A DNA stretch of 64,000 nt from Rhodothermus profundi (GTDB taxonomy: Bacteria > Bacteroidota > Rhodothermia > Rhodothermales > Rhodothermaceae), in assembly GCF_900142415.1 (NCBI RefSeq), contig NZ_FRAU01000004.1, forward strand, positions 124,001 to 188,000, given 5' to 3'. The position numbers and the translations under genes were made by a program. Below, in pieces: positions 4,521 to 22,003 of the stretch. The notes under the pieces were generated by a model. It was not told where the DNA came from and made no database searches. It was given only the letters and a program-made list of their open reading frames with translations. Numbering within the stretch: the first letter of the stretch is position 1; each line of letters starts with the position of its first letter.

Positions 4521-4579
4521 GGACGCCCAAATGCCCTTGTAAATCCTGAATCCGCAAACCTAAAAACGGAGGTAGTCTT

Positions 4580-4669
4580 ATGGACGTTGTGCTTGGCGCT
4601 CTTTCCTTTGTGGTCATGGCAGGCATGTGGATTGTCGGTCCTCAGATCTTTCTGAAAAAGAAAAAGTAA
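4580..4669 (+). CDS. 29-residue single-pass membrane peptide behind amt
   Basis: ATG at 4580 is preceded by AACGGAGGTAGTCTT, a strong Shine-Dalgarno site at good spacing, and the frame runs to TAA at 4667-4669. The product starts MDVVLGALSFVVMAGMWIVG and ends in QIFLKKKK. It is one hydrophobic helix with a basic tail, as expected for a small inner-membrane peptide with the C-terminus in the cytosol. It lies 59 bases after amt and before a strong terminator, so it should be part of the amt transcript. I do not know a named family. By position it could be a small subunit or regulator of the transporter (inference). Confidence 0.6.
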   Translation: MDVVLGALSFVVMAGMWIVGPQIFLKKKK

Positions 4670-4712
4670 CAACGGCGCCGCCGGACATCCTCCGGTGCGC
4701 CCACCCGAATAC

Positions 4713-4748
4713 AAAAGCGTTGCTGCTCGGAGCAGCAACGCTTTTTTT
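4713..4748 (+). terminator. Intrinsic terminator of the amt unit
   Basis: AGCGTTGCTGCT (4716-4727) and AGCAGCAACGCT (4731-4742) form a perfect 12-bp stem with a 3-base loop. It is followed by a run of seven T residues and preceded by A residues that extend the stem. It closes the amt plus small-peptide transcript. Confidence 0.9.
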
Positions 4749-4898
4749 CTGTCGATCTATCCGCTCGCTTTTCGTCGATGGCCTGCTGCGATGGCCTCTG
4801 AACCATGCACCCGCCGCTTGGGCGAACGGCAACATATGGGTTGACCCACATCTATTTAACCACAGAATCAATAAACCCAATCACGTGGAGCGGTCGCC

Positions 4899-5141
4899 AT
4901 GAAAACCATCGTTGCCTCTCTGGTTGCGGCTTTGCTGCTGGTACTGAGCGTCGAGATCTCCTGGGAAGAACGGGAGATTGGCTTTTCCGTGCAGGAGGCG
5001 CTTGCCGCCTGTACAGGGTGCAGCACCTGCTTCGGAGAAACGTGTTGCAAAGAGATAGACCGGTATTATTGTGGGATGATCTACAGTGAGCAGTCCGGCT
5101 ACGTACGCTGCTATCGCCCCTGTTTCTTCTGTCTAGAGTAA
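4899..5141 (+). CDS. Small Cys-rich exported peptide (locus A), NVEALA-like
   Basis: An 80-residue product with an N-terminal hydrophobic segment (MKTIVASLVAALLLVLSV), a roughly 18-residue polar linker, the motif VQEALA, and a tail of about 45 residues with nine cysteines in pairs such as CTGCSTC, TCC and CFFC. Short Bacteroidota peptides with a leader, a VEALA-like motif and C-terminal cysteines are known as NVEALA proteins and often sit beside six-bladed propeller genes, as here. The match is from memory and by motif. ATG 4899 is preceded by GTGGAGCGG. A 12-base palindrome TGGGTTGACCCA lies at 4837-4848 and could be an operator. The function is unknown; an exported disulfide-rich peptide or a processed precursor is plausible. 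Confidence 0.7.
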   Translation: MKTIVASLVAALLLVLSVEISWEEREIGFSVQEALAACTGCSTCFGETCCKEIDRYYCGMIYSEQSGYVRCYRPCFFCLE

Positions 5142-5220
5142 GCGATTTGTTGGTTTTTACCTTAAGTTTGATCTGGTGCCCTTCAGACCGGGGCCTGATT
5201 AATCTATCAAGGGCTTACGC

Positions 5221-6268
5221 ATGCGCGGGGCAACGATTCTGATCTTTCTGTGGGCCGGACTGGCCGGCTGCAGAACCGAACCGGCTTCCCCACCGGATTT
5301 CTTTGCCCAAACGGAACAACCCCTGCCTCAGCGACGCATCCAGGCCCGCCTCCATGCGGTCGATAGCCTGAATCTTTCTGCGTTTGAGCTATATGAACCT
5401 GCTCAACTTTGTAAGTCAGGTCCGTATCTTTTTTACTTTCGAAAGAAATATAGGCAAGGTAGCGGTATTTGACAGGGATTTGCAGGCGCGGCCTTTCTTT
5501 ATCGGAAAAGGAAAAGGCGAGGGACCGGGGGAGCTTACAGGAATTACGGATATGGATGTGCACCACGACCGGATCTATCTCTTTTCGGGAACGCGCCTTG
5601 TGGTGTGGTCGATCGCAGACACGCTCGTTCTGGATAAACAGATGGCAGTGGAGGCGTACCGTGGCGAGGCCCTCGATGAGCACAGGATACTGATTTTGTC
5701 CCCTACCAGCTCCGACTATCTCTTCAACATCCTGGACCTGGAGGGAAAGATCATTCGCGGTTTCGTCCGCACTAACCTGGGAAAGGTAACGCCCCTTCGC
5801 TACAGCGGCGATCTGGCTTTTGATGGGAAATACTTGTACTATGCGGGCGAATCTGAGTCGTTTCTCAAGAAATATACGCTCGAGGGCCGGCAACTTTTCT
5901 CCGTGGCCACGATTGATAACCTGCCCAGCGAGGGCAACTACGTGCAGTTCGAGGCCGGTGGCGAAAGCATGGCGATGGGCTACTCGCCCTGGGTTCTTTT
6001 CTCTACCGCCACGATCGAGGTCTATGATGCATACCTGCTGGCAGTGCCGATTCACGATGAGAACCGGAAGCCGCTCTCCTACCTCGACATCTACGCTACC
6101 GGAGACGGGCGTTACGTGGCCACCTACGATCTGGCGCGGATGCCTCTGGCACTGGCGGTGGATGCTGATGGCATCTACACGCTGGAGCGCGAAGGCGATG
6201 ATGTCTACCTGAAGCGTTATCCCAACGTGCTCACCACGCTGGCCGACAACCGGCCGGACACGCCATGA
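5221..6268 (+). pseudogene. Six-bladed beta-propeller lipoprotein, frameshifted (locus A)
   Basis: Two overlapping frames together make one propeller protein. From ATG 5221 the product has a lipoprotein signal ending in the lipobox LAGC followed by R. This frame stops at about 5472. From about 5440 to 6268 the +1 frame carries the rest, starting NIGKVAVFDRDL and including GKGKGEGPGEL, the motif typical of these propellers (Pfam 6-bladed beta-propeller, formerly DUF5128). The break lies in A-rich sequence near 5440-5452; dropping one A there would restore a single frame of about 348 residues. It could be a real mutation, an assembly error or programmed +1 shifting. It sits 79 bases behind the Cys-rich peptide gene. 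Propeller lipoproteins usually act at the cell surface or periplasm. Confidence 0.7.
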
Positions 6269-6677
6269 CCCGAGCGGGATAAGCAACGCGGACGCTGGCG
6301 CTTTGTCTGAAGGCGGCCCTGTCGGCAGAATAAATGGACGCACGCATCATGCACAGCGCAGGAGCCCTCGATTACGTCACCTGACCTACTCCGCGCAAGC
6401 AGCGCGCGCCGGCAAGGTCGGCGCCGGTAGCATCTTCGTACGGTCCATCGACAAAAAACCACCGCATCCGTCCCCCTAGACGAAAACAAAGTCGCCATTG
6501 CCCCGATCATCGCACCTTCCTAGACCCTTTGGATTTTTTTATACCTCCCCTGCTTCTGCTATCTCTAAAGGTGTAGAGCTTTTTGTTGCAGAAACGGTAC
6601 GTTTTTGCTGGAACTCTGCTCTGTTTTTCTGCGCTTTCTCTGGTGCGTGGATTTAGCCATAAAAACAGGAAGGAACC
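6269..6677. other. Intergenic region with no recognisable gene
   Basis: About 400 bases. The first 250 are GC-rich with no open frame on the plus strand. A minus-strand frame (6217-6510) overlaps the propeller gene and is Arg-, Cys- and Ser-rich without motifs, so I regard it as chance. The last 150 bases are T-rich and hold the leader of the sigma factor gene, including TACGTTTTTG near 6598, which loosely resembles a Bacteroidota -7 element. Confidence 0.4.
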
Positions 6678-8586: not shown

Positions 8587-8646
8587 GCGCTTGCGCCAAG
8601 CAGGCAGGCTGCGTAACCTTAACGATATACTTCGTTGAAGCGAACC

Positions 8647-9444
8647 ATGAACAGTAAACAACTGCAACGCGCAGCCATCTCTCAACGCCACGGCGCCAGT
8701 CGCCCGTGGCTTTTTTTGTGGCTCCTGCTTGGGATCGGCGTACGTGGCCCAGCCGCCCAGACGGTCGATCCCGTCGCCCTGGTACGGGCAGCCGAGGAGG
8801 CGATCAAAGGCAAAACCAGCCATGCCGTGCTGGAAATGACCGTCGTTACACCCGACTATCGCCGCACCCGAAAGCTGGAAGCCTGGTGGAAAGGGAACGA
8901 AAAAGCGCTGATCGTCACGCTTGCGCCTCCTCGTGAAGCAGGCAACCGCACGCTCAAACGCGGCAGCGAGCTGTGGATGTACCTGCAGGAAACCGAAACC
9001 ACCATTAAGATTCCCCCCTCCATGATGCTTCAGTCATGGATGGGATCCGACTTCACCTACGACGATCTGGTGCGCGAATCGAACCTGGTGCGCGACTATC
9101 ATATCCGGCAGGTCGGGACCGACACGCTGGAAGGGGTGCCCTGCTACGTGCTGGAGTTGTTGCCTAAACCGGAAGCACCCGTCGTCTGGGGCAAGCTGCA
9201 TTACTGGATTCGCCAGACCGACCGGCTGCCCGCCCGCATCGAATACTACAGCGAGCAGGGCGAGCGAGTACGGACACTTTCGTTCCATAACGTGCAGCGG
9301 ATGGGGGGACGCCGCCTCCCTACCCGATGGATAATGCACAACGACCGTGAACCGGGGCGCTACACGGAAATCCGCCTCCTGGAGGTAGCCTTCGATATGC
9401 CTATACCGGAAGCGATCTTTAGTTTTCGAGCGCTGGAGCAATAG
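8647..9444 (+). CDS. LolA-like outer-membrane lipoprotein-sorting/carrier protein
   Basis: A protein of about 265 residues with an N-terminal hydrophobic segment (PWLFLWLLLGIG) ending near PAAQ and a LolA/LolB-like fold thereafter. KLEAWWKGNEKALIVTLAPPREAGNRTLKRG, split by the WMYLQETETTIKIPPSMM strand, is typical of the proteins annotated as outer membrane lipoprotein-sorting protein. Such carriers bind lipids or acylated proteins in a half-barrel in the periplasm. It heads a five-gene operon with two FtsX-type permeases, an ATPase and an outer-membrane barrel, which supports a shuttle role between membranes. The start is uncertain: ATG 8647 is used, TTG 8635 is possible and neither has a clear Shine-Dalgarno site. 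Confidence 0.8.
   Translation: MNSKQLQRAAISQRHGASRPWLFLWLLLGIGVRGPAAQTVDPVALVRAAEEAIKGKTSHAVLEMTVVTPDYRRTRKLEAWWKGNEKALIVTLAPPREAGNRTLKRGSELWMYLQETETTIKIPPSMMLQSWMGSDFTYDDLVRESNLVRDYHIRQVGTDTLEGVPCYVLELLPKPEAPVVWGKLHYWIRQTDRLPARIEYYSEQGERVRTLSFHNVQRMGGRRLPTRWIMHNDREPGRYTEIRLLEVAFDMPIPEAIFSFRALEQ
8687..8717 (+). terminator. Terminator-like hairpin inside the start of the LolA-like gene
   Basis: GCCACGG (8687-8693) and CCGTGGC (8704-8710) form a 7-bp stem with a 10-base loop followed by seven T residues. It fits an intrinsic terminator for the upstream sigma/baeRF unit, yet it lies within the predicted signal-peptide codons of the LolA-like gene. It may work as an attenuator for the transport operon. 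Confidence 0.5.
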
Positions 9445-9446
9445 CC

Positions 9447-10667
9447 ATGACCGGACGGCTCGCCTGGCGCAATCTGGGGCGCAATCGCCGACGCACGTTA
9501 CTCACCGTAGCGGCTGTCTTTTTTGCCACGTTTCTGATGGTGCTCCTGCGCGGGCTGCAGCTCGGCACCTACGATTTCTTCATCCGTCAGAGCACCCGGC
9601 TTTCGACCGGCTACCTCCAGATCCAGCACGCAGACTATCTGGACCGACAATCGCTGCGCCAAAGCTTCCGGCTTCCTGACACGCTCTTTGTCCGCATTCG
9701 CACCACGCCGGGCATTACAGGGGCAGCCCCCCGCCTGGAAAGTGGCGGCCTGATCAGCAATCGCGCAACTTCTTATGGCGTGCGCCTCCTGGGGATTGAT
9801 CCCACCTATGAGCCAGAAGTCACCGATTTTCCCGCCCGGCTCATCGCGGGACGGATGCCGGCGCCCAACGACCACCTGGAGATCGTCGCAGGCTACCGCC
9901 TGCTCGAAAACCTGAACGCTTCGGTCGGCGATACGCTGGTGTTGCTGGCCGAAACCTATCAGGGCTTTCTCACCAGTCGCTTTGCCGTGGTAGTGGGCGC
10001 GCTACGCATCGGTTACGAAGTGCACGATCGTTCGCTCGTGCTGATGCCACTGCAGGCCCTGCAAGACCTGCTCGAAACCGGCAACCGCGTAACGGCCGTC
10101 GCCATGGCCGTCCGGCGCAACGCCGACGTACCTGTCGTGCGCGACCGCCTGCAGGCCTGGCTGAGCCGCCCACTCGTCGTGCGCACCTGGGAAGAACTGA
10201 TGCCCGAGCTGCGCCAGGCAATCGAACTGGATAACATCAGTGGCCTGCTCTTTCTCTTCATGCTGCTGATCGTTGTGGCCTTTGGCGTGCTCAACACCGT
10301 GCTGATGAGCGTGCTGGAACGCTCGCGCGAATTTGGCATGTTGCTGGCCCTGGGCATGCCCAACGAACGGCTGCTGCGCGTGGTGTTCCTTGAAGCCGTG
10401 CTGGTCGTCCTGCTGGGGTTGATCCTGGGAAGCGCGGCCGGTTTTGCCGTCAACGCCTACCTGATTCGCCATCCGATCACGCTGGGCGGAGAACTGGCCC
10501 AACTGTATGAGTACTATGGTTTTCTGCCAGTGCTGACGTCCTCCGTGGCTCCGGAAATTTTTGCGCGCACAGCCCTTCGGGTGTTGACGATTGCAGGGCT
10601 CGCCATTCTGTACCCGCTCTGGCATGTGCTCCGGCTGGAACCCCTGAAAGGCATCCGCTACACCTGA
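9447..10667 (+). CDS. FtsX/LolE-type ABC transporter permease, first
   Basis: A 406-residue inner-membrane protein with the MacB/FtsX layout: one N-terminal helix after the conserved LAWRNLGRNRRRTLLTVAAV, a large periplasmic domain (residues about 45-260), and three C-terminal helices beginning at GLLFLFMLLIVVAFGVLNTVLMSVLERSREFGMLLALG. That last stretch is the family signature. These permeases do mechanotransmission or lipoprotein extraction rather than classic import. The start lies 2 bases after the LolA-like stop, and its own stop overlaps the next ATG by one base, so the operon is translationally coupled. Its sister permease follows, giving a likely heterodimer like LolC-LolE. Confidence 0.9.
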   Translation: MTGRLAWRNLGRNRRRTLLTVAAVFFATFLMVLLRGLQLGTYDFFIRQSTRLSTGYLQIQHADYLDRQSLRQSFRLPDTLFVRIRTTPGITGAAPRLESGGLISNRATSYGVRLLGIDPTYEPEVTDFPARLIAGRMPAPNDHLEIVAGYRLLENLNASVGDTLVLLAETYQGFLTSRFAVVVGALRIGYEVHDRSLVLMPLQALQDLLETGNRVTAVAMAVRRNADVPVVRDRLQAWLSRPLVVRTWEELMPELRQAIELDNISGLLFLFMLLIVVAFGVLNTVLMSVLERSREFGMLLALGMPNERLLRVVFLEAVLVVLLGLILGSAAGFAVNAYLIRHPITLGGELAQLYEYYGFLPVLTSSVAPEIFARTALRVLTIAGLAILYPLWHVLRLEPLKGIRYT

Positions 10668-11905
10668 TGGTTTTCCAGGACATCACCGGATTGGCCCGCG
10701 TGGCCTGGCGCAACCTCTGGCGCAACCGACGCCGCACGCTGATTGTGCTCAGCAGTGTGGTGGTGGGCGTGTTTGTGCTGGTCCTCTTTGACACGCTCAA
10801 CCTGGGCATGGTGGAGCAGATACTCGACAACCATCTTCGCCTGCACATCGGACATGTCCAGATCCACCGCCAGGGCTACCACGCCAACCCGGCCGTGGCG
10901 CATTTCTTTCCGAACGCCCGGGCCGTGCAGCAGCAGGTGCGTACTTTCCCATCGGTGCGGGCGGTTGCGCCGCGCGTGCTGGCCCACGGGCTGCTTTCAA
11001 GCGCCTACAACAACGGTGGCGTGCAACTCGTGGGCATCGAGCCCCGAGCAGAATCCCTGCTAACCTACATTGCCCGTCAGGTCATCGTCGGTCGCTACCT
11101 GCGGGGGGAAGGCCGCGAAATTCTCCTCGGTGAGCGGCTGGCCCGCAAGCTTGAGGTGCGTCCTGGCGACCGGGTCGTCGCGATGGCTGCCCGCCCGGAC
11201 GGCCAGATCGGCTCCGAAGTGTTCCGCGTGGTCGGTCTGTTTCGCACCGTCAGCGCCGACTTTGATCGGACCATGGCCTTCATTCCCATCACGCAGGCAC
11301 GTGCGATGCTGGGTCTGCCAGCCGACGCTGCCCATGAATTAACCTTGCTCCTGCAGAAAGCCCAACAGGCCGACGCGCTCAAAGCGCGCCTGCAGGCCCT
11401 GCTGCCGGAAACGTTCGAGGTGCTGACCTACCGGGAAGTGGTACCGCTACTGGTCATGCAGCGCGAGCTGTATACCGAGATGATGTATCTGGTTTACCTG
11501 ATCATCGGGTTTGCCCTCATTTTCGGGATCATCAATGCCATGCTCATGGCCGTGTTAGAGCGACTGCCGGAGTTTGGCGTGCTGCGCGCTCTGGGCATGA
11601 GTGAGGGCCGGCTGTTCCTGCTCGTGTCGCTTGAATCGCTGCTGATCGGACTGCTGGGAACGGCCCTGGGCTGGATGCTCAGCCTGCCGGTGTATGCCTA
11701 TCTGGCCCGGCATGGCCTGGACCTGGCCATTTTTTCGGAAGCGCTGGCCGCCTTTGGGATCGGTTCGGTGATCTATCCCCGCCTGACGTTTCGGGTAGTC
11801 TGGAATGCCTGGGTAATCATTCCGCTGGTAGCCTGGCTGGGGGCCCTCTACCCGGCCTGGCGGGCCATACATGTTGAACCCGTAGAAGCCATGCGGGCTG
11901 TATGA
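10667..11905 (+). CDS. FtsX/LolC-type ABC transporter permease, second
   Basis: A 412-residue paralogue of the preceding permease. It has the same opening (VAWRNLWRNRRRTLIVLSSV), a periplasmic domain, and the C-terminal block FALIFGIINAMLMAVLERLPEFGVLRALGMSEGRL with three helices. Two different permeases with one ATPase match the LolCDE arrangement, in which the complex takes lipid-modified cargo from the inner membrane and passes it to a soluble carrier. The stop overlaps the start of the ATPase gene (ATGA). I cannot tell which of the two corresponds to LolC, because the hook that recruits LolA is not recognisable by eye. Confidence 0.9.
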   Translation: MVFQDITGLARVAWRNLWRNRRRTLIVLSSVVVGVFVLVLFDTLNLGMVEQILDNHLRLHIGHVQIHRQGYHANPAVAHFFPNARAVQQQVRTFPSVRAVAPRVLAHGLLSSAYNNGGVQLVGIEPRAESLLTYIARQVIVGRYLRGEGREILLGERLARKLEVRPGDRVVAMAARPDGQIGSEVFRVVGLFRTVSADFDRTMAFIPITQARAMLGLPADAAHELTLLLQKAQQADALKARLQALLPETFEVLTYREVVPLLVMQRELYTEMMYLVYLIIGFALIFGIINAMLMAVLERLPEFGVLRALGMSEGRLFLLVSLESLLIGLLGTALGWMLSLPVYAYLARHGLDLAIFSEALAAFGIGSVIYPRLTFRVVWNAWVIIPLVAWLGALYPAWRAIHVEPVEAMRAV

Positions 11906-12594
11906 AGTCGAACGCTATAGTTCGGGTCGAACAGGTAACCAAGGTCTACGACGAAGGCGCCGTGCCTGTCCAGGCACTACGCGGCGTCACCCTCACCATC
12001 GAGCCAGGCGCATTCACAGTCATTGCCGGTCCCTCCGGCTCTGGCAAGACGACCCTGCTCAACTTGCTGGGCGCGCTCGACGTGCCCACCACCGGACGGG
12101 TGTTTTTTGAAGGACAGGACCTGAGCAAACTCTCTCGACGCGAGCGGGCCCGGCTCCGACTCTACAAGATCGGCTTTGTGTTTCAGGCCTACAACCTGAT
12201 TCCGGTACTGACAGCCCTGGAAAACGTGGCGTTCGTGCTGTTGCTTCAGGGCGTGCCGGAGCGAGAGCGGCGCCAACGGGCTCTGGAGGTGCTGGAGCAA
12301 CTCGGCATCGCCGATCTGGCCCACAAACGCCCTCACGAAATGAGCGGTGGCCAGCAGCAACGGGTCGCGGTGGCCCGCGCTGTGGTCAGCCAGCCACGCC
12401 TGGTGCTGGCCGACGAACCCACTGCCAACCTCGACTCGGCCACCGGCGCCCGCCTGCTCGACCTGATGGAGCAGCTCAACCGCGAGCAGGGCGTGACGTT
12501 CGTCTTCTCCTCGCATGACCCTCAGGTCATTGAGCGCGGCCGGCGCCTGATCTGGCTCCACGACGGACAGATTAAGCGCGACGAAACGCGGTGA
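11902..12594 (+). CDS. LolD/MacB-type ABC transporter ATPase
   Basis: A 230-residue ABC ATPase. It shows Walker A GPSGSGKTT near residue 40, the Q-loop in FQAYNLIPVLTALENV, the signature LSGGQ-like MSGGQQQRVAVARAVV, Walker B LVLADEPTANLD and a switch histidine in FSSHDP. The YNLIPVLTALENV type of Q-loop and the short length are characteristic of the LolD/MacB/FtsE group that works with FtsX-type permeases. It energises the two preceding permeases. Its start overlaps the second permease stop by 4 bases and its stop overlaps the GTG start of the next gene. Confidence 0.93.
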   Translation: MKSNAIVRVEQVTKVYDEGAVPVQALRGVTLTIEPGAFTVIAGPSGSGKTTLLNLLGALDVPTTGRVFFEGQDLSKLSRRERARLRLYKIGFVFQAYNLIPVLTALENVAFVLLLQGVPERERRQRALEVLEQLGIADLAHKRPHEMSGGQQQRVAVARAVVSQPRLVLADEPTANLDSATGARLLDLMEQLNREQGVTFVFSSHDPQVIERGRRLIWLHDGQIKRDETR

Positions 12595-13718
12595 ACCGTC
12601 TGCTGATCCTCTTGGTGCTGGCAATTGCCGGCTCGATGCAGGCACAACCTGTGCGCCTGCGCGGATACGTCCTGGCCCTACACGCCTGGGAACGCTTCGC
12701 GCCGGCCGGTACGCTCCTTTTTGGAGGCCCGCGGACGCTGCGCCTGGAACTGCTTCGCACGCGGCTGATGCCCACCGTGCGCCTGCCGGGCAGCCTGCGG
12801 CTTCAGCTCGCCTATGAGGTAAACCTGCTCTATGCCTCGACCCCGAATCTGCTGTCTGCCCCGGCCGATCCCATGCGTCCGCGCCAGATGATCAAGCTAA
12901 GCGCCCGCCTTTACCACGACCGCCATGTCCGCGTCACGCACTACCTCGACCGGCTTTCGCTGCGGCGCTCTTTTACGTGGGGCCGCCTTGAACTGGGACG
13001 CCAGCGCATCGCCTGGGGCGTTGGCCGCCTCTGGAACCCCGTGGACTTTTTCAACCCGCTGGCTCCTTTCGAATTTGCCCGCGTCGAAAAAAACGGCGCC
13101 GACGCCTTCTCGCTCCGCTACTATCTGGGCCTGCTCAGCGACCTAGAACTGGTGTACAATCCGGAGCACCACGGCCGCTGGCACAATGTGGCCTTCCGGT
13201 GGCGCACCCATGCAGGAACCTACGACCTGGCGTTTGTGGGCGCGATCCTGCGCCGCCGGGCTACGGTGGGGCTGACGGCGGCCGGCAACCTGGGCATGGC
13301 CGGTGCCCGCGCCGAACTGCTCTGGGAGCAGGGCCGAGCGATCAGTCTGGTGCTGGGCCTCGACCATCAGTTCGCACCCCGCTGGTACGGACTGGTCGAG
13401 TATTACCGGAACGGTCGGGGCGCGGCCCGTCCCGAAGCCTATGACTGGCTGGCCCTGGCCCGTGGCGAAGCCGTGCAGGTAGGCCGCGACGAGCTGGCGC
13501 TGATGTTGCAGTACGAGCTACACCCCCTGGTCCGGCTCCAGGCGCTGCACCTGCGCAACCTCAACGACCAGAGCTTCTATACCGGCTTCCAGCTCACCTG
13601 GCTGGCCACCCAGGCCGTCGATCTCGTGCTGGGCGGCTGGCTGGGCGAAGGGGATCGGCTCAGCGAATACGGCCTGTTGCCCGACGTGCTTTTTCTGCGC
13701 GGACGGGTATATTTCTGA
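12591..13718 (+). CDS. Outer-membrane beta-barrel protein of the Lol-like operon
   Basis: A 375-residue protein with a signal peptide (MNRLLILLVLAIAGSMQAQ) and alternating polar/aromatic strands to the end, which terminates LPDVLFLRGRVYF, a typical outer-membrane barrel ending in Phe. The stretch GRLELGRQRIAWGVGRLWNPVDFFNPLAPFE resembles DUF1302-like barrels, which are found beside LolA-like and FtsX-type genes in other bacteria (from memory). The GTG start overlaps the ATPase stop (GTGA). By position it could be the outer-membrane acceptor or exit for whatever the carrier delivers. It has no lipobox, so it is not a LolB equivalent by sequence. Confidence 0.65.
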   Translation: MNRLLILLVLAIAGSMQAQPVRLRGYVLALHAWERFAPAGTLLFGGPRTLRLELLRTRLMPTVRLPGSLRLQLAYEVNLLYASTPNLLSAPADPMRPRQMIKLSARLYHDRHVRVTHYLDRLSLRRSFTWGRLELGRQRIAWGVGRLWNPVDFFNPLAPFEFARVEKNGADAFSLRYYLGLLSDLELVYNPEHHGRWHNVAFRWRTHAGTYDLAFVGAILRRRATVGLTAAGNLGMAGARAELLWEQGRAISLVLGLDHQFAPRWYGLVEYYRNGRGAARPEAYDWLALARGEAVQVGRDELALMLQYELHPLVRLQALHLRNLNDQSFYTGFQLTWLATQAVDLVLGGWLGEGDRLSEYGLLPDVLFLRGRVYF

Positions 13719-13866
13719 AGCGCAAGCCTTCTGCATGTCCGACCTTCGGGCCGATCTTACCGGCCGGCATCGCACCGATCGACGGCACTACCCGGCTCCG
13801 GCAACGCAATCTCGGGCCAGCGCCACACGCCTGCATCCTGCGATCCTGACGACACCGACCGGTACC

Positions 13867-14427
13867 CTATGGCGAAAGGACCATGTCCGGCTCGGCCAGC
13901 GGCATCCCGGCCTGCACCCACTGGCGGATCCGGTCGACCCCGACCAGCCGAAGCAACAGCCGGGGATGACTTTCCGCGTCCAGGTAGAGCACCAGTTGCG
14001 GCGTGGCGGCTGCGCCTCCATGCATTGCCCGCAGCCCACGAAAGGCCAGGCTGTTCCAGCGTCCCCCGGCCGCCACCTCGTGAAAGGGTCCCATCCGCTC
14101 CAGGTGTTTCAGGCCATCTGCAGGCGAGCGACTGATGGCCACCCCGACGAAGTGCACGCCCTGCCGATGCGTTTCAGCATACGCCCTCAGGTGCGTCCGA
14201 ATCGTCCGCAACAGCGCCGGAAGGTCCGGGTGGTTGGAAGGCCCACAGGTGGGCGAGCCAATGTAGACGGCCACCAGCCGGGTATTGAACGACGCAGAGG
14301 TATCGACAGGCGCCCCCGGAGCAGCAAACAGCTTCTGGTACCATAGATACCCACCCCACGCAAACAGCACAAAGCTGGGGAGATAGAGGCTAATACGTGT
14401 AATATGAGATGTTGGGGACTTCATCAT
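13867..14427 (-). CDS. Membrane-anchored thioredoxin-fold protein with CGPS motif (locus B)
   Basis: A 186-residue protein. Residues about 11-30 form one membrane helix (LYLPSFVLFAWGGYLWY), placing the rest outside the cytosol. A thioredoxin fold follows, with LVAVYIGSPTCGPSN where thioredoxins have WCGPC, so the second cysteine is Ser (a CXXS site). A cis-proline candidate is in ATPQLVLYLD. CXXS proteins can hold mixed disulfides or isomerise them but cannot perform a normal dithiol cycle. The gene overlaps the end of the propeller gene by 38 bases in another frame, so it is coupled to it. With the Cys-rich peptide gene upstream, a role in handling peptide thiols is an attractive inference. 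Confidence 0.7.
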   Translation of the reverse strand: MMKSPTSHITRISLYLPSFVLFAWGGYLWYQKLFAAPGAPVDTSASFNTRLVAVYIGSPTCGPSNHPDLPALLRTIRTHLRAYAETHRQGVHFVGVAISRSPADGLKHLERMGPFHEVAAGGRWNSLAFRGLRAMHGGAAATPQLVLYLDAESHPRLLLRLVGVDRIRQWVQAGMPLAEPDMVLSP

Positions 14428-15487
14428 AATCCTCAGCTATCATGATATGGTCATCAATATACCTTATTCTTGACACACCTATAGAATCAATAAGATGGTA
14501 TTGTTTTGTATCCAAATCAAAAATATAGCCAAAAAGCTTCTGTATTTTCCATGATTTTAAAGTCATATATGTACTGATCAGTTTATCATTTAAAAAATGA
14601 ATATTAGCCAACCTAATTCCATCTGAGGCAACAAATATTCCACCATCACTTTGCTCCTCAAATCCCGTCAAAGGTAAGTTTTCAATCCATATCTGGTCTA
14701 TCAGATTACCATCTGTTTTATATATCTGAATCAGCGGAGCATTTCTATACACAAGAAAGATTCGTTGCTTCTTAAAATCGCAGACTATATAGTTCCTGGT
14801 AATAAACATACGCACAAGTCTATTCTCTGTCATGTAATCAATATTTCCAAATTTACCTATTAAATCTCCCTGCTTGTTCAGGTGGTAAATCAGGGAATCT
14901 CTCCAAGAAGTATGTTGTGAGATAAAAAGCGATGAATCATTGACGCATAACCCTCCACTCGGAGTAATAGGGAGTAAGATTGTTCGATAGTAAGCATATC
15001 CCGTCTCTGCGGGCACAAAAACTTCAATTTTTCGACGCCTATCCGTTACATACAGGGTGTCATAATCATCAAGTTCTAACCACTCTGGATACAGAAACTC
15101 TCCAGGACCCTCTCCTTTTCCTCCTATAGAAAAAAGATAGCTTCCATCTGAACTGAATACACGTACCACAGTATTTTCTTTATCCAGAACAAAAATACGT
15201 CCTTTTCGATCCTGCGCTACATCTCCTATCTCACCAAACAGGGTCCACGGATCTGATTCCCCCCACCCACCGACATGCCATCGACGTTTTGCCGTTTTAA
15301 GACGCCCAATCAATCGATTGATTTTCTCGTTTTCCTGAACTTGCTGCCACGTAGAAATTTCAGAAAACGTAAAGCGTGCTCTGTCCGGATGTTGACGAAC
15401 TGTTCCAGCCTGCTCTTTCGAGCGACAGGCAGCTATCGCTACAAGCACTGCACTAACAATACACCATTTTCGAAACGATGCATACAT
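14390..15487 (-). CDS. Six-bladed beta-propeller lipoprotein (locus B)
   Basis: A 365-residue protein. The N-terminus MYASFRKWCIVSAVLVAIAAC ends in a lipobox-like AIAAC, so a lipid-anchored exported protein is likely. Repeats follow with the propeller signature GRIFVLDKENTVVRVFSSDG and IGGKGEGPGEFLYPEW, the same GKGEGPGE motif as the frameshifted gene at 5221. It belongs to the 6-bladed beta-propeller family (formerly DUF5128), common in Bacteroidota and of unknown function. The DNA is visibly AT-rich compared with its neighbours, with runs of A and T and codons such as ATA and AAA, suggesting recent transfer. It is the middle gene of a minus-strand cassette: Cys-rich peptide, propeller, CXXS thioredoxin. 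Confidence 0.8.
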   Translation of the reverse strand: MYASFRKWCIVSAVLVAIAACRSKEQAGTVRQHPDRARFTFSEISTWQQVQENEKINRLIGRLKTAKRRWHVGGWGESDPWTLFGEIGDVAQDRKGRIFVLDKENTVVRVFSSDGSYLFSIGGKGEGPGEFLYPEWLELDDYDTLYVTDRRRKIEVFVPAETGYAYYRTILLPITPSGGLCVNDSSLFISQHTSWRDSLIYHLNKQGDLIGKFGNIDYMTENRLVRMFITRNYIVCDFKKQRIFLVYRNAPLIQIYKTDGNLIDQIWIENLPLTGFEEQSDGGIFVASDGIRLANIHFLNDKLISTYMTLKSWKIQKLFGYIFDLDTKQYHLIDSIGVSRIRYIDDHIMIAEDYDEVPNISYYTY

Positions 15488-15512
15488 TGCAGTAAGAATT
15501 TTTTACTGATAA

Positions 15513-15548
15513 CTGGATGGGGGTAGGCAATAGCCCACCCCCATCCAG
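15513..15548 (-). promoter_or_regulatory. Strong intercistronic hairpin between peptide and propeller genes
   Basis: CTGGATGGGGGT (15513-15524) and ACCCCCATCCAG (15537-15548) pair perfectly over 12 bp, and GGC/GCC extends the stem inside after one mismatch. It lies between the peptide stop (15561) and the propeller start (15487). No T run follows on the minus strand, so partial attenuation or 3'-end protection of the peptide message is more likely than full termination. Confidence 0.6.
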
Positions 15549-15560
15549 CTCATTCCTTCT

Positions 15561-15767
15561 CTACTGCCTCTGAATCCCACACCCCAATGTTTTACATCCG
15601 CTACCGACAACATCGCAGAGTGTATAACCGTCTGGGTTCTCAACACATTGCCCTCCTTCACACTCATCATCTTCACAGTACAATGCTACACTTGGCGTCT
15701 CAGGCCATAGAACAGCTCCACCTAAAAACGCTACCGAGCAGACCAGCAGGATCAATGCCTTCTTCAT
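15561..15767 (-). CDS. Small Cys-rich exported peptide (locus B)
   Basis: A 68-residue product with a classical leader (MKKALILLVCSVAFLGGAVL) and a mature part of about 45 residues holding six cysteines in the pattern YCEDDECEGGQC, LCDVVGSGC and LGCGI. The start is well fixed: AGGAGG lies 5 bases before ATG at 15767. The acidic middle and evenly spaced cysteines suggest a disulfide-bonded or metal-binding fold. It differs in sequence from the locus A peptide but shares its size, export signal, Cys richness and position before a propeller gene. I do not recognise a named family. Downstream, after a strong hairpin, are the propeller and thioredoxin genes. Confidence 0.7.
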   Translation of the reverse strand: MKKALILLVCSVAFLGGAVLWPETPSVALYCEDDECEGGQCVENPDGYTLCDVVGSGCKTLGCGIQRQ

Positions 15768-15810
15768 GGCGCCTCCTGTTTTGATTGGTTGAACAATGGA
15801 TATGAAACTT

Positions 15811-15863
15811 TTTTGAAATTTCTCTCTCTCTCTCCTTCGTCAAGTATTCAATTTTGAAATTTC
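15811..15863. repeat. (TC)7 tract flanked by direct repeats upstream of the locus B peptide
   Basis: TTTTGAAATTTC occurs at 15811-15822 and again at 15852-15863. Immediately after the first copy is a dinucleotide run of seven TC units (15821-15834). The run is 54-67 bases upstream of the peptide start on the minus strand, and on that strand TTGACG lies directly before it, so the GA repeat could fall in a promoter spacer. Confidence 0.55.
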
Positions 15864-16043
15864 CGTTAAAGATGACAATCTGCGAGACAGCCCGGTCGAG
15901 GATCGGACCCAGCGTCTGGCAACGAAATGTCGATGCATCTTACCCACCTTCACAGGCAATCCGCCGGCCTGCCCACCTCCCGTTCCTCGAAAAACTTTCG
16001 CTCCCAGCATCGGCGTTAGCGGATGCGTCGGATAGCAGAAGCC

Positions 16044-16541
16044 TCAGCGCCCTCCCAGTCGCACCACCAGTCCCATGTTCGGGAGCAGGTCCCATTGCAG
16101 CACGCGCCGACGGGTGAATTCGTCGCGTCCGGGCCCTCCGGACAGCCGCTCCTTCCACCGGGGCACGCCGATCATACCCCCCTCTATAGCCCATCGCCGG
16201 CCGGGGAGCCACACCCGCACGCCAAGCTCCAGTCCGAATACGACCGTTGCCGCTCCATCCCAGAAGCCCGCCATGTACATCAGATGCAGGCGCCCCAGCA
16301 GGTCAACCCGACCGTCCATGCGCACGGTCACGCCAGCAAATCCGTCCGCAATCAGCAGCAGCCATCCCGCGCCGAGCGTCCCGTGCAGACCACCGCCCAG
16401 CGGCCCTTCCGCCATCACACCCACCCCACCCACGGCTTTGGCCTGCATGCCCCACCAGGCAGCCGGCTGACCGTACCCCGTGCAGACGCTTCCGGCCAGC
16501 AGCAGACCCAGCGCGACGGTAAACGCGCGTCCCTTTACCAT
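16044..16541 (-). CDS. Hypothetical exported protein
   Basis: A 165-residue protein with a clear signal peptide (MVKGRAFTVALGLLLAGSVCTGYGQ) and a Gly-rich mature part with alternating hydrophobic segments such as GGVGVMAEGPLGGGLHGTLGAGWLLLIADG and VVFGLELGVRVWLPG. This pattern suggests beta strands of a small outer-membrane protein. I recognise no family. ATG 16541 is used because the signal peptide begins there; a GTG nine codons upstream (16568) is possible. It stands alone, divergent from the radical SAM gene, and about 280 bases upstream of the locus B peptide in the same orientation. Confidence 0.55.
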   Translation of the reverse strand: MVKGRAFTVALGLLLAGSVCTGYGQPAAWWGMQAKAVGGVGVMAEGPLGGGLHGTLGAGWLLLIADGFAGVTVRMDGRVDLLGRLHLMYMAGFWDGAATVVFGLELGVRVWLPGRRWAIEGGMIGVPRWKERLSGGPGRDEFTRRRVLQWDLLPNMGLVVRLGGR

Positions 16542-17770: not shown

Positions 17771-20700
17771 TCAGCCGCAGCCGCTCGAGCTACCGCAGTT
17801 CGGACAGACGTAGCAGGCTCCTGAGCGCACAGTGATCGAGCCGCAATTTGAGCAAGCCGGCGCGTCTTCCTGATTCTGGAAGGCGGCTGAGGCCACGGTA
17901 GCTGCTTCGGCTGCAGCAGCCACCGCGCTTCTCTGCTGCGTTTGTAGGAAGGTTTCGATCGTCTGTCCTACCAGCGGTGTCACGCTACCGGTCGGTTGCG
18001 TCTCAAAGCTCAACTCCAATTGCCGCTCATCACGGGCTGGACCGCTCCGCTTCACCTCGGCGGCCACTCCCTCCTGCGGGTCTTCACTCTTTTCCTCCTG
18101 CGGCCGTCCCAGGAATTTGAGCGACAGGTAGCGGAAAATGTAGTCCATGATGGACTTGGCAATCGGAATCTGCGGGTTGTTCGTAAAGCCCGCCGGCTCA
18201 AAGCGCATGTGGCTGAACTTGTTGCATAGATCTTCGAGCGGCACGCCATACTGGAGCGCAATCGAGATGGCCGTGGCAAAGGCGTCCATCAGGCCCGAGA
18301 TTGTCGATCCCTGCTTGGCCATCGTGATAAAGATCTCGCCCGGCATGCCGGTATCCGGGTAGAGGCCAATGTGCAGATAGCCTTCGTGCCCGGCCACGGA
18401 AAACTTGTGCGTAATCGAAGGCCGCTCGTCGGGCAGTCGCTTGCGCACCGGCTTATAGACGACCTTTTCCACAATCTTTTCGACCACCTGCGGCTCGCCG
18501 GCGGCCACCCCATCGCCTGCCGCCTCGGCCTTCTTGTCCTCTTTGCGCGTCGAAAGCGGCTGGCTCCGCTTCGAGTTTTCCCGGTAGATGGCCAGCGCCT
18601 TGAGCCCCAGCTTCCAGCCCTGAATGTAGGCGTCCATGATCTCCTCGACCGTCACATGCTCCGGCATGTTGACGGTCTTGGAAATCGCGCCACTGATGAA
18701 CGGCTGGCAGGCCGCCATCATTTTGATATGCCCCATGTAATGAATGAAGCGCTGGCCTTTGTAGGGTTTGAACGCGCAGTCGAAGACCGGCAGGTGTTCC
18801 TCCTTCAGGTGCGGCGCCCCCTCAATCGTGTCGTTCTCCTCAATATAGGCCAGGATATCTTTAATCTGCGCTTCCGAATAGCCCAGGCGACGCAGGGCGA
18901 TAGGGACCGTGTTGTTGACAATCTTGAACATGCCATCGCCCTTGCCCGCCAGCAGCTTGTACTTCACGAGGGCAATGTCCGGCTCAATGCCCGTCGTATC
19001 GCAGTCCATCAGGAACGAAATGGTCCCGGTCGGGGCCAGTACCGTGGCCTGGGCATTGCGGTAGCCGTAGCGTTCTCCCAGCGCAACCATGCGCGCCATG
19101 CTTTCGCGGGCCGCCTCCTTCAGGTAAGCCGGACAGCTCGGATGGATATCCTCGACGGCGGCCTGGTGCAGGCGCATCACCTCCAGCATAGACTCCCGGT
19201 TCTTCTCAAAGCCCGGGAAGGGCCCGATGCCCTCAATGGCTGCAATTTCCGCGCTCCGGGCATAGGCCTCTGCATGCATGATGGCCGTAATGGCGCCGGC
19301 CACGGCCCGTCCTTCGTCGCTGTCGTACGGCAGGCCCATCGCCATCAGCAGCGCGCCCAGGTTGGCGAAGCCCAGCCCGAGTGGCCGGTAGTCGTGGCTG
19401 TTCTGCGCGATCTTTTCCGAGGGATAGCCGGCATTATCGACCAGGATTTCCATGGCCGTGATAAAGATCCGCACGGCTGCCCGGAAGCGCTCGACGTCGA
19501 ACGATCCGTCCGCTCGCTGAAACTTGCGCAGGTTCAGCGAGGCCAGGTTGCACGCCGAGTTGTCGAGAAACATGTACTCGGAGCAGTTGTGGACGGCGAT
19601 CCCGTTCGCCACGAAGTGGTCCGTAACCGGCTCCGTCAAATCGTAGACAGGCTCTTCGCCCAGAAGCTCAAGCGAGACAACCTGATCAACCAGCGGATCT
19701 TCGTAGGCCGAGACCGTAGCGTTCAGCGCGCGCAATGCTGCCGCCTTTGGACTCTCTGGAAGGAACCCGATCTCGCGCTCAAAGCGCACCCGACTCGACC
19801 GACTGATACGCAGACTATACATGGGCTGCACGCGATACTCCTGCACTCCCCCTTTGCCGTCCGGCAGCAGCGCGCGATCGGTCAGCCGCCGATTTTCATA
19901 CAATTTGCTCTTGATGCCAAACCCCAGCAGCAACAGCTGAACCTGCTTCAGTAATTCCTGAGAACTCGAATCCAGACTGATGTACTGGCTCTTACTGCCG
20001 TAGTTGGCGACCGTACCATCAGCGGTGAACAGGCCGCGCAGCAGCGCAGCAACGCTCTGTCGATCCAGCTGGAAAACCTCTTCGGTGAACCGTTTGGCTG
20101 CGGCCCCCTGGTCCAGTACGGCAAACTGCTTCAACACCTCCTGCACCGTCCGGGCACCGGTAGCAACGGCGACACTGGCAGGCCGCTCGGCGACCTGCAC
20201 GCCTTTACGATGCGTCTGCCGGTCAAACTGATTGACCACCTGGGCCATTTTTTCGGCCACAGCCCTTTCCCGTCGATCCAGCGTCAGAATGGCCACTTCA
20301 TGCGAAAGGCATCCGTCCCCCACCATCAGCCCGATGTATTCGGCCACCTCCGGATCCAGATGCTTCCGGCCAAACCGCGGTGGCACCAGGCGCACGACGT
20401 CGTCACGGGTCAACTCAGCGGCCGGCACGTCGCCCCGGTTTTCTGTCCACACCCGGTGATCGGCCGTCAGCTTCACCTCGTAGCCGCACCGGGTACGCAG
20501 CCGGTAGACCGGCTTGATCCCCGTTTCGATCACCCGGGTTGTGCGGTGCAGGCGGCCGTCCAGTCCCACTACGCGTGGCGTTTCCCCCACCAGACTGTCG
20601 ATGCGGCGTAGCCCGTCCTCGGTGGCCACCAGCGTATCGCCTGTCACACACGGGTTGCTCGAGTTGATCGGCCCGCTACGCTTGCAGGTGTGCCACTTCT

Positions 20701-21838
20701 GGATCGTGTCCTCGTACTGCAACCCCGGGTCGCCGCAGATCCACGTGCCTTCCGCTACCTTATAGAGCAACTCATAGGCATCAATCTCCTCAATAACTTC
20801 GCCTGTTGTTACAGCCCGGAGGGGGTATTTTTTGCGGGCCAGCACGGCCTCCATGAATTCATCCGTGACGCGCACGGACTGGTTCACATTCTGAAAGGCG
20901 ACCGAGCTGTACGCCTCGCCATTGAACGAGCCGTCGTAGCCCTGTTCGATCAGCGCCCAGGCCTTCTTTTCCTCTTTGGCCTTGGCCGTCACAAACTCCA
21001 TGATGTCGGGGTGCCAGACCTTCAGCGTCTGCATGATGGCCGCCCGGCGGGTCTTGCCCCCCGACTTGATTGTAGCGCCCGTGGCATCCTGCACGCGCAT
21101 GAACGACACCGGGCCGGAAGGCCGTCCTCCTCCGGAAAGCTTCTCTTTGGTTGAGCGCAGCCTGGACCAGTCGGCGCCCACGCCAGAGCCAAACTTGAAC
21201 AGGCGAGCGCTCTCAGCCATGAGCTGCCAGATATCGTCAATCGAGTCCTCTACCGAGATGATGAAGCAGGCCGAGGCCTGGGGCCGCTCGTATGGATCAA
21301 CGGGCACGACCCGCTGCTTTTCAAAGTCCCAGCCAAAGATCGTTTTGCCTCCTGTATCCCGCACTCCGTACTGATGGTAGAGGCCGACGTTAAACCAGAC
21401 CGGCGAGTTGAAGGCCCCATACTGGTGCAGGCAGAGCCAGGTTAGCTCATCGTAGAAGCGCTCAGCGTCTTCCGGGGTCGCAAAGTATCCCTGCGCTTTG
21501 CCCCAGTCAGCAATCGTGCGGGTAACCCGATGAATGAGTTGCTTCAGACTGTACTCCCGTTTGCCCTCGCGGGGATCGCCGTTGCCGGCTGCCAGGTCAC
21601 CGTAGAAGTATTTGGAGGCAACGACGTTTGTGGCAAGCTGACTCCACGTCGTAGGAAATTCTACCTCTTTTTGTTCAAAAACCGCTTCGCCTTTGCTGTT
21701 ATAGATGGCAGCGGTTCGGCGCTCCCAACGGACCGTATCAAATGGATGGACGCCTTCCTGAGAAAACACGCGCGCAATGCGTAGGCCGCGACGAAGCTCC
21801 TGGGCATTTGCGGACGACTTGCGGGGGGACTTTGCCAT
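17771..21838 (-). CDS. nrdJ: Vitamin B12-dependent ribonucleotide reductase (class II) with intein
   Basis: A 1355-residue precursor; without the intein (residues 397-751) the enzyme is 1000 residues, normal for the large class II family. It reduces ribonucleotides to deoxyribonucleotides with adenosylcobalamin and needs no oxygen. Visible features are FNSPVWFNVGL, the substrate-site QASACFIISVEDS, the active-site loop NPCSEY (split by the intein), PTGTISFLMDCDTTGIEPD, and a C-terminal zinc ribbon with CSNC and CPNC followed by GSSSGCG, whose last cysteines probably re-reduce the active site. The start is ATG 21838, with GGAGG 5 bases upstream; the TTG four codons earlier is unlikely. A promoter and DnaA-box-like site lie upstream, and a terminator follows. 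Confidence 0.96.
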   Translation of the reverse strand: MAKSPRKSSANAQELRRGLRIARVFSQEGVHPFDTVRWERRTAAIYNSKGEAVFEQKEVEFPTTWSQLATNVVASKYFYGDLAAGNGDPREGKREYSLKQLIHRVTRTIADWGKAQGYFATPEDAERFYDELTWLCLHQYGAFNSPVWFNVGLYHQYGVRDTGGKTIFGWDFEKQRVVPVDPYERPQASACFIISVEDSIDDIWQLMAESARLFKFGSGVGADWSRLRSTKEKLSGGGRPSGPVSFMRVQDATGATIKSGGKTRRAAIMQTLKVWHPDIMEFVTAKAKEEKKAWALIEQGYDGSFNGEAYSSVAFQNVNQSVRVTDEFMEAVLARKKYPLRAVTTGEVIEEIDAYELLYKVAEGTWICGDPGLQYEDTIQKWHTCKRSGPINSSNPCVTGDTLVATEDGLRRIDSLVGETPRVVGLDGRLHRTTRVIETGIKPVYRLRTRCGYEVKLTADHRVWTENRGDVPAAELTRDDVVRLVPPRFGRKHLDPEVAEYIGLMVGDGCLSHEVAILTLDRRERAVAEKMAQVVNQFDRQTHRKGVQVAERPASVAVATGARTVQEVLKQFAVLDQGAAAKRFTEEVFQLDRQSVAALLRGLFTADGTVANYGSKSQYISLDSSSQELLKQVQLLLLGFGIKSKLYENRRLTDRALLPDGKGGVQEYRVQPMYSLRISRSSRVRFEREIGFLPESPKAAALRALNATVSAYEDPLVDQVVSLELLGEEPVYDLTEPVTDHFVANGIAVHNCSEYMFLDNSACNLASLNLRKFQRADGSFDVERFRAAVRIFITAMEILVDNAGYPSEKIAQNSHDYRPLGLGFANLGALLMAMGLPYDSDEGRAVAGAITAIMHAEAYARSAEIAAIEGIGPFPGFEKNRESMLEVMRLHQAAVEDIHPSCPAYLKEAARESMARMVALGERYGYRNAQATVLAPTGTISFLMDCDTTGIEPDIALVKYKLLAGKGDGMFKIVNNTVPIALRRLGYSEAQIKDILAYIEENDTIEGAPHLKEEHLPVFDCAFKPYKGQRFIHYMGHIKMMAACQPFISGAISKTVNMPEHVTVEEIMDAYIQGWKLGLKALAIYRENSKRSQPLSTRKEDKKAEAAGDGVAAGEPQVVEKIVEKVVYKPVRKRLPDERPSITHKFSVAGHEGYLHIGLYPDTGMPGEIFITMAKQGSTISGLMDAFATAISIALQYGVPLEDLCNKFSHMRFEPAGFTNNPQIPIAKSIMDYIFRYLSLKFLGRPQEEKSEDPQEGVAAEVKRSGPARDERQLELSFETQPTGSVTPLVGQTIETFLQTQQRSAVAAAAEAATVASAAFQNQEDAPACSNCGSITVRSGACYVCPNCGSSSGCG
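19586..20650 (-). mobile_element. Intein with LAGLIDADG endonuclease inside nrdJ
   Basis: 355 residues spliced out of NrdJ. The N-terminal splice block starts CVTGDTLVATEDG, block B has TADH at intein residues 62-65, and the C-terminal block reads HFVANGIAVHN followed by Cys of the C-extein. Two LAGLIDADG-type helices are present, IGLMVGDG (106-113) and LRGLFTADG (204-212), so a dodecapeptide homing endonuclease is encoded and looks intact. The junctions are NSSNP before and CSEYMF after. The +1 cysteine is the residue that aligns with the thiyl-radical cysteine of ribonucleotide reductases (Asn-x-Cys-x-Glu), so unspliced protein must be inactive. Confidence 0.95.
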
Positions 21839-22003
21839 GGCTGCCTCCAAAAAACCAATTGCGTTTTGATGGTTAAACCAGCCTGCTCAGCACCGGCGAC
21901 TGCATAACGGCAATAAGAGGACCTTTCCCGCCGTTCACCGGCACAGATGCGGTTTTCTAATAAAGAACCTGAAGACCCGTTTATGCAAGGACGAGTTAAT
22001 CAC

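Follow-up and report, generated by a model that had tools for sequence, protein, structure and literature searches.

In methylamine dehydrogenase, a cysteine-rich light chain (MauA) goes with a propeller heavy chain (MauB) and a thioredoxin-like maturation factor (MauD). Thioredoxin folds with a CXXS motif can hold or isomerise disulfides. AGR2 and ERp44 are CxxS protein disulfide isomerases, and their single active-site cysteine favours mixed disulfides and the isomerisation or retention of cysteine-rich secreted clients. In the pediocin operon, the genes for a disulfide peptide, its immunity protein and the thioredoxin-like PedC lie together (PMC4919988), and in NHLRC2 a thioredoxin-like fold and an NHL propeller are domains of a single polypeptide, with a CCINC motif lying between them (PMC6107167). 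No description of a peptide-propeller-thioredoxin gene arrangement was found in the open literature; subscription papers lay outside this search.

Such an arrangement lies in a 64,000-nt stretch of Rhodothermus profundi DNA, hereafter called the window (Table 1). The first-pass annotation had described three minus-strand open reading frames (ORFs): a 68-residue exported peptide with six mature cysteines, a 365-residue lipoprotein with a six-bladed propeller, and a membrane-anchored thioredoxin fold with CGPS in place of CGPC. All three are present as described, including the 38-base overlap between the propeller and thioredoxin genes (14390-14427). The cassette resembles pedABCD of pediocin PA-1, where a short disulfide-bonded secreted peptide, a partner gene and a thioredoxin-like factor lie in one operon (PMC4919988). 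It differs in having a propeller lipoprotein where pedABCD has PedB, a Sec-type signal, a CxxS rather than a CxxC motif, an acidic peptide and no ABC exporter. It falls outside the class IIa/PedABCD group, which is marked by a double-glycine leader and a dedicated ABC exporter, and has a signal-peptidase I-like site instead. NHLRC2 shares a thioredoxin-like fold and an NHL propeller with the cassette, but the two are fused and no small peptide accompanies them. AGR2 and ERp44 share with the cassette protein a thioredoxin fold and one active-site cysteine. However, they are eukaryotic ER proteins, while the cassette protein is bacterial and membrane-anchored, with a predicted TlpA/ResA-like fold, and the likeness is one of predicted fold and motif. 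Methylamine dehydrogenase offers a cysteine-rich small chain, a propeller chain and a thioredoxin-like maturation factor, as the cassette does.

Table 1. Features of the window bearing on the cassette (positions in the window)
Feature	Position	Strand	Remarks
Peptide gene, 68 aa	15561..15767	minus	signal ~residues 1-28 (15684-15767); mature six-Cys part ~29-68 (15564-15683)
Propeller lipoprotein, 365 aa, DUF5128/NHL type	14390..15487	minus	PF17170, lipobox, PDB NHL matches; AT-rich
Thioredoxin-fold protein, 186 aa, membrane-anchored, C61-G-P-S64	13867..14427	minus	AF2/Foldseek; invariant Pro143
Ribosome-binding site of the peptide gene, AGGAGG	15772..15777	minus	direct reading of the sequence
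Conserved upstream region, a pair of GAAATTTC(AAAA) palindromes flanking TTGAC	15815..15863	minus	putative promoter/operator
Stretch missing from genome G038	13717..16053	no strand	insertion/deletion unit between porin-like and outer-membrane-like genes
Second exported Cys-rich peptide, 80 aa	4899..5141	plus	9 Cys beyond the signal, ...VQEALAACTGC..., other family
Second window propeller lipoprotein	5221..6268	plus	right after the second peptide; 5221-5472 and 5384-6268 in different frames

The peptide has an N-terminal hydrophobic helix and a predicted signal-peptidase I-like site (SVA-LYC, between A and L), beyond which all six of its cysteines lie (positions 31, 36, 41, 51, 58 and 63). In the alignment of the six-cysteine family (A1), C31, C36, C41, C51 and C63 are invariant and C58 is present in at least 90% of the members; the shared pattern, CE(N/D)DxC-x(n)-C-x(n)-C-x(n)-CxxxxC, starts just beyond the predicted signal-peptidase site. 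The cysteine number is even in 48 out of 54 peptides, and five are 8-Cys variants. Even counts, together with five members that gained a fourth pair, are as expected for disulfides. The 54 peptides are acidic (mean net charge of about -6), and tryptophan is not conserved, being absent beyond the signal in 23 of them. When close relatives were pooled, the mature peptide had a pS of 0.30 and a pN of 0.07. This is purifying selection, from which it follows that the peptide is translated and constrained. Failure of translation had been named beforehand as a finding that would undo the proposal; selection at the protein level points the opposite way. In the metagenome-assembled genome (MAG) G040, the ATG and the N-terminal lysines of the peptide gene are gone, and that copy may therefore be dead or mis-sequenced.

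The window peptide belongs to no Pfam or NCBIfam family (no Pfam family at E <= 1), and its AF2 model (pLDDT 85; helix 2-20, short strands 34-62) matched nothing in the PDB. Against PDB sequences, profile A1 gave chance-level matches only and profile A2 none. Processing of the peptide by an amidating lyase of the NHL-propeller type was considered and rejected. Such a lyase depends on a monooxygenase and on a C-terminal glycine, whereas Glu is often the last residue of the peptides and no monooxygenase gene was noticed.

The propeller has the lipobox VAIAAC and matches PF17170 (“6-bladed beta-propeller”) with 52.2 bits (gathering cut-off 22.9, E 6.9e-14), over residues 83-187 only. A phmmer search against the PDB matched it to the NHL propellers of Thin/TRIM71. 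Its closest paralogue (43%) stands alone on the minus strand of locus L009 (G000:C1:749000-758000, at 3641-4888); the remains of a broken propeller lie immediately upstream of it (C1:753948-754148).

The thioredoxin-like protein has one N-terminal transmembrane helix (6-34), and its single cysteine lies in the CGPS motif. It had no match in Pfam or NCBIfam, while its AF2 model (pLDDT 87.5) matches TlpA/ResA/DsbE folds (best Foldseek match 3gl3, E 1.5e-5; TM-scores 0.4-0.55). C61, G57 and P143 are invariant in 37 relatives, P143 at the cis-proline position. The predicted fold and the cis-proline thus place the protein, in all probability, in the TlpA/ResA/DsbE group; by its CGPS motif it is not a classical CxxC thioredoxin/TlpA oxidoreductase. 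Its nearest named relative, from a Rhodothermus MAG, has 79% identity and was the sole match in a single-protein scan of named genomes. Among 66 tabulated relatives, the fourth motif position is S, A or T in 48 and Cys in 18.

The single-cysteine form predominates in six-cysteine cassettes: 34 of the 37 scored had CxxS or CxxA. Thioredoxins with CxxS/A occurred 34 times with a six-cysteine peptide and 10 times without, as against three and seven times for CxxC (Fisher p 0.007). On the tree, this association comes down to only three (starred branches) to six independent pairs, for which a sign test is not significant. The pattern is a pointer, though no proof, towards a six-cysteine client going together with the loss of the resolving cysteine. 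In a small clade (L082, L083, L086 and L115), the thioredoxins have CxWC instead of the CxWA seen in L107. The readable peptides of this clade have about eight cysteines, including a CGxC, and motif and peptide may change together.

Next, we turn to the distribution of the trio. A search with the thioredoxin only found it in 26 out of 114 genomes of the order (14 genera), and an independent search with the peptide led again to many of these contigs, with matches 1-3 kb from the thioredoxin and on its strand. In the fetched regions, iterated profiles recovered complete peptide-propeller-thioredoxin units in five families and at least nine genera. Besides the genus of the window, these comprise four genera in family f3 and one or two in each of the families f4, f14 and f18, the last belonging to the same class. 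The first-pass annotation had proposed conserved synteny in several genera, with cysteine spacing kept, as its check; the gene order is kept in these genera and the six-cysteine spacing is preserved. The order peptide-propeller-thioredoxin was found 24 times and peptide-peptide-propeller-propeller-thioredoxin five times, along with several other peptide-containing arrangements. Of the 54 thioredoxin genes that adjoin a propeller and have upstream sequence that can be read, 37 have a six-cysteine peptide, and another exported Cys-rich ORF lay upstream at about seven of the remaining 17. No recognisable peptide was found in cassettes L181, L184, L189, L190, L191 and L196. Many of the genomes are draft MAGs with frameshifts.

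By one mechanical rule, the 64-kb window has only two small exported Cys-rich ORFs, each directly 5' of one of the two propellers of the window. In the fetched loci, the density of such ORFs was 0.46 per strand-kb 5' of propellers and 0.011 elsewhere, an enrichment of ~40-fold that is somewhat inflated since a few loci were fetched through peptide matches; the window figure (two of two) is free of this bias. On these counts, the cassette exceeds what is expected by chance.

The neighbour genes in the window do not recur with other cassettes, and the three genes are therefore the conserved unit. Within the genus the cassette is patchy. In G038 the flanks are joined with ~14 bp between them, a clean empty site, which shows that the whole cassette is an accessory unit. 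Next to the cassette and convergent with it, a plus-strand operon (8635-13718) encodes a LolA-like protein, two FtsX-like permeases, an ABC ATPase and a porin-like protein, and is conserved in the genus with or without the cassette. As a candidate exporter, this ABC/FtsX/LolA-like operon was rejected: G037 and G038 keep it although they have no cassette, and nearly all other cassettes lack it (relatives of its ABC gene occur in only 3/48 cassette loci). An AmmeMemoRadiSam-like radical SAM gene was set aside as a maturase because it is not common to other cassettes. Elsewhere in the window, a ribonucleotide reductase gene (17771-21850, minus strand) seemingly carries an intein (CVTGDTL...VHNC); G038 has ~1.3 kb extra in this gene, at window position 19025, perhaps a further intein.

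In the region 5' of the peptide gene, the GAAATTTC palindromes at 15856-15863 and 15815-15822 are 41 bp apart and partly conserved in G040, and the region is possibly a promoter/operator or a set of regulator sites. The GAAATTTCAAAA repeats were discarded as a general operator, since among the loci exact copies occur in this genome only.

We then compared the cassette parts with one another. In the sister species Rhodothermus G040, the syntenic site has a thioredoxin with 78% identity and a signal with 79%, and the upstream region is conserved, while the propeller has only 41% and the mature peptide 33%. For the thioredoxin dS is 0.48, and the synonymous sites of the propeller are saturated; hence the central block differs in its history, and not merely in a faster protein evolution. 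At this site the mature peptide and the propeller were swapped together. A block replacement this sharp is confined to one locus pair; other close pairs diverge more evenly. Base composition follows the same division, with a GC content that drops from ~65% to 33-48% across the peptide and propeller of the window and stays at 64-68% in the thioredoxin gene (flanks 64-68%); across cassettes, peptide GC and propeller GC have a correlation of 0.74. Peptide and propeller distances, given the thioredoxin, have a partial correlation of 0.21, reached in 8 out of 2000 permutations, whereas that of peptide and thioredoxin, given the propeller, is 0.05. Five tandem cassettes hold two copies each of peptide and propeller and a single thioredoxin, and in them both peptide and propeller keep separate a and b lineages; another tandem has the order peptide-propeller-peptide-propeller-thioredoxin. 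Taken together, the partial correlations, the tandems, the GC content and the paired replacement indicate that the tight pair is peptide plus propeller and that the thioredoxin is the constant part.

The first-pass annotation had counted propellers kept without the peptide or the thioredoxin as evidence against a joint system. Such propellers exist, but they bear out this objection only in part and trivially: many propellers of the same broad superfamily stand alone, including most of those in the genome itself. Pairs without a thioredoxin are also found. At 4899-6268 of the window a peptide (no Pfam match) is followed by a propeller whose frame is broken around 5384-5472. Locus L014 (G000:C1:704000-718000) has five propellers and two different small cysteine peptides, at 3458-3697 and 5078-5326, which are preceded by near-identical ~180-bp regions with a G+C-rich repeat. 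The second cassette of the genome (L010, G000:C7:72000-83000, at 3459-6382 on the minus strand) has two propellers, a frameshifted thioredoxin and no peptide, and looks like a decaying tandem cassette.

A parallel arrangement was found in Bacteroidales-like genomes, a label that comes from the NVEALA family and from one named Bacteroides control genome. Here, Pfam NVEALA peptides adjoin PF17170/TolB_like propellers, and a CxxC thioredoxin-like lipoprotein follows directly. The order of exported cysteine peptide, PF17170/TolB_like propeller and thioredoxin-like protein, which the Rhodothermus-side cassettes have, recurs in the Bacteroidales loci L241, L242, L244, L245 and L246, while L178, L240 and L248 have the same parts arranged otherwise. 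An S26 signal peptidase gene is present in several NVEALA loci (the clusters span L178, L240-L246 and L248), and in the six-cysteine cassette L183 an S26 gene follows the thioredoxin. The NVEALA loci thus resemble the cassette in parts and order, often with S26 nearby. They differ from it in the NVEALA motif, in fewer and irregular cysteines, and in a CxxC thioredoxin-like lipoprotein of a different sequence family. Membership of the window peptide in NVEALA (PF14055) was rejected, as it had no match to the profile and no NVEALA match was found within the genus. Profile comparison gave no real alignment between A1 and the NVEALA peptides, and only a 17-column active-site match between the thioredoxins of the two sides. 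On this comparison, what the two sides share is the arrangement and the propeller family; common descent of all three parts does not follow from it. The word NVEALA was found in no paper of the open-access literature searched, where the arrangement is apparently undescribed. An iron-regulation report for BT0662 and BT0664 gives P values of 0.132 and 0.353, which are not statistically significant, and it was left out of account.

The explanation that we favour, with even confidence and no more, is an exported peptide with three disulfides that has a propeller lipoprotein as its specific partner and is isomerised or retained by a thioredoxin-like protein, monothiol and dedicated to this task. 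The signal peptide would export the 68-aa precursor, to be cut about two residues ahead of the first cysteine. The mature part would then fold as an acidic mini-protein of ~40 residues, presumably with three disulfides. The membrane-anchored thioredoxin-like protein, with its one nucleophilic cysteine (CxxS/CxxA) and cis-proline, would be the constant accessory factor, forming mixed disulfides with the peptide and so isomerising it or temporarily holding it. This step is suggested by the fold, the motif, the gene order and the analogy to CxxS isomerases and PedC. The propeller lipoprotein would be the specific partner of the peptide, whether as binding protein, receptor or immunity protein, and mature peptide and propeller would form a cognate pair that is exchanged as a pair. 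The first-pass annotation had made the peptide a possible substrate of the thioredoxin and the propeller a possible scaffold or receptor, a reading that the gene data support in part. We infer likewise the final destination and the biological role of peptide and propeller.

The main functional rival is a bacteriocin with its immunity protein, which we consider rather unlikely. The maturation step is the same as in our preferred explanation, and the roles of peptide and propeller differ: the Cys-rich peptide would be a secreted antagonist of close relatives, the propeller its immunity protein and the thioredoxin-like protein a PedC-like disulfide factor. A conserved signal and thioredoxin around a variable mature peptide and propeller that are swapped together would fit this, as would an accessory, insertable unit that is patchy in the genus, and the pediocin operon sets a precedent for the combination (PMC4919988). 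However, no dedicated ABC/peptidase exporter is common to the cassettes, the peptides at about -6 are unlike most membrane-active bacteriocins, and propellers on their own are very common. The paired replacement would equally be explained by kin recognition or signalling.

It is unlikely, in our judgement, that the thioredoxin is simply adjacent and works separately, in general envelope thiol chemistry, with Dsb-type enzymes oxidising the six cysteines and only peptide and propeller functionally paired. The partial correlation of only 0.05 between peptide and thioredoxin speaks for this, as do the peptide-propeller pairs without a thioredoxin (the second window pair, L014 and several NVEALA units) and the few independent CxxS contrasts. 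On the other hand, dozens of cassettes from several families have the thioredoxin directly 3' of the propeller, with an overlap or close to one, while other neighbours are not shared, and in Bacteroidales a different CxxC thioredoxin-like protein takes the same place.

A redox enzyme of the methylamine dehydrogenase kind, with peptide and propeller as its subunits, is very improbable, even though the same three kinds of part are clustered and peptide and propeller occur 1:1. In methylamine dehydrogenase, two light-chain tryptophans form TTQ; the peptides have no conserved tryptophan, hence no tryptophylquinone site, and this makes such an enzyme unlikely. Moreover, the peptide is much shorter than the light chain (mature part only ~40 aa), the window neighbours do not recur, no MauE-like partner or cytochrome gene was noticed, and a housekeeping subunit is not expected to vary as a swapped block. 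Chance neighbours or a spurious small ORF, for which the absence of a database family might speak, are scarcely credible: nine or more genera keep the gene order and a fixed cysteine pattern, the peptide is under purifying selection, and such ORFs are enriched 5' of propellers.

More broadly, we tentatively raise the possibility that these loci belong to a hitherto unrecognised, Bacteroidota-wide class of polymorphic secreted-peptide systems. In these, a peptide stabilised by disulfides would be exchanged as an allelic pair with its cognate propeller, located at the surface or in the periplasm, for kin recognition, signalling or antagonism. The pair would be served by a dedicated thioredoxin-like maturase, which in the Rhodothermus branch would have turned into a single-cysteine isomerase or chaperone specialised for a single family of six-cysteine peptides; NVEALA loci of gut Bacteroidales would be of the same kind. 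Through the cassette, orphan families (DUF5128/TolB_like propellers, NVEALA, unnamed CxxS thioredoxins and new six-cysteine peptides) become components of a single system that can be tested. A naturally occurring one-cysteine thioredoxin whose predicted client is small and dedicated would be a clean model for bacterial thiol isomerisation or retention. Since NVEALA peptides and propellers recur in Bacteroidales, a function found here could carry over to them.
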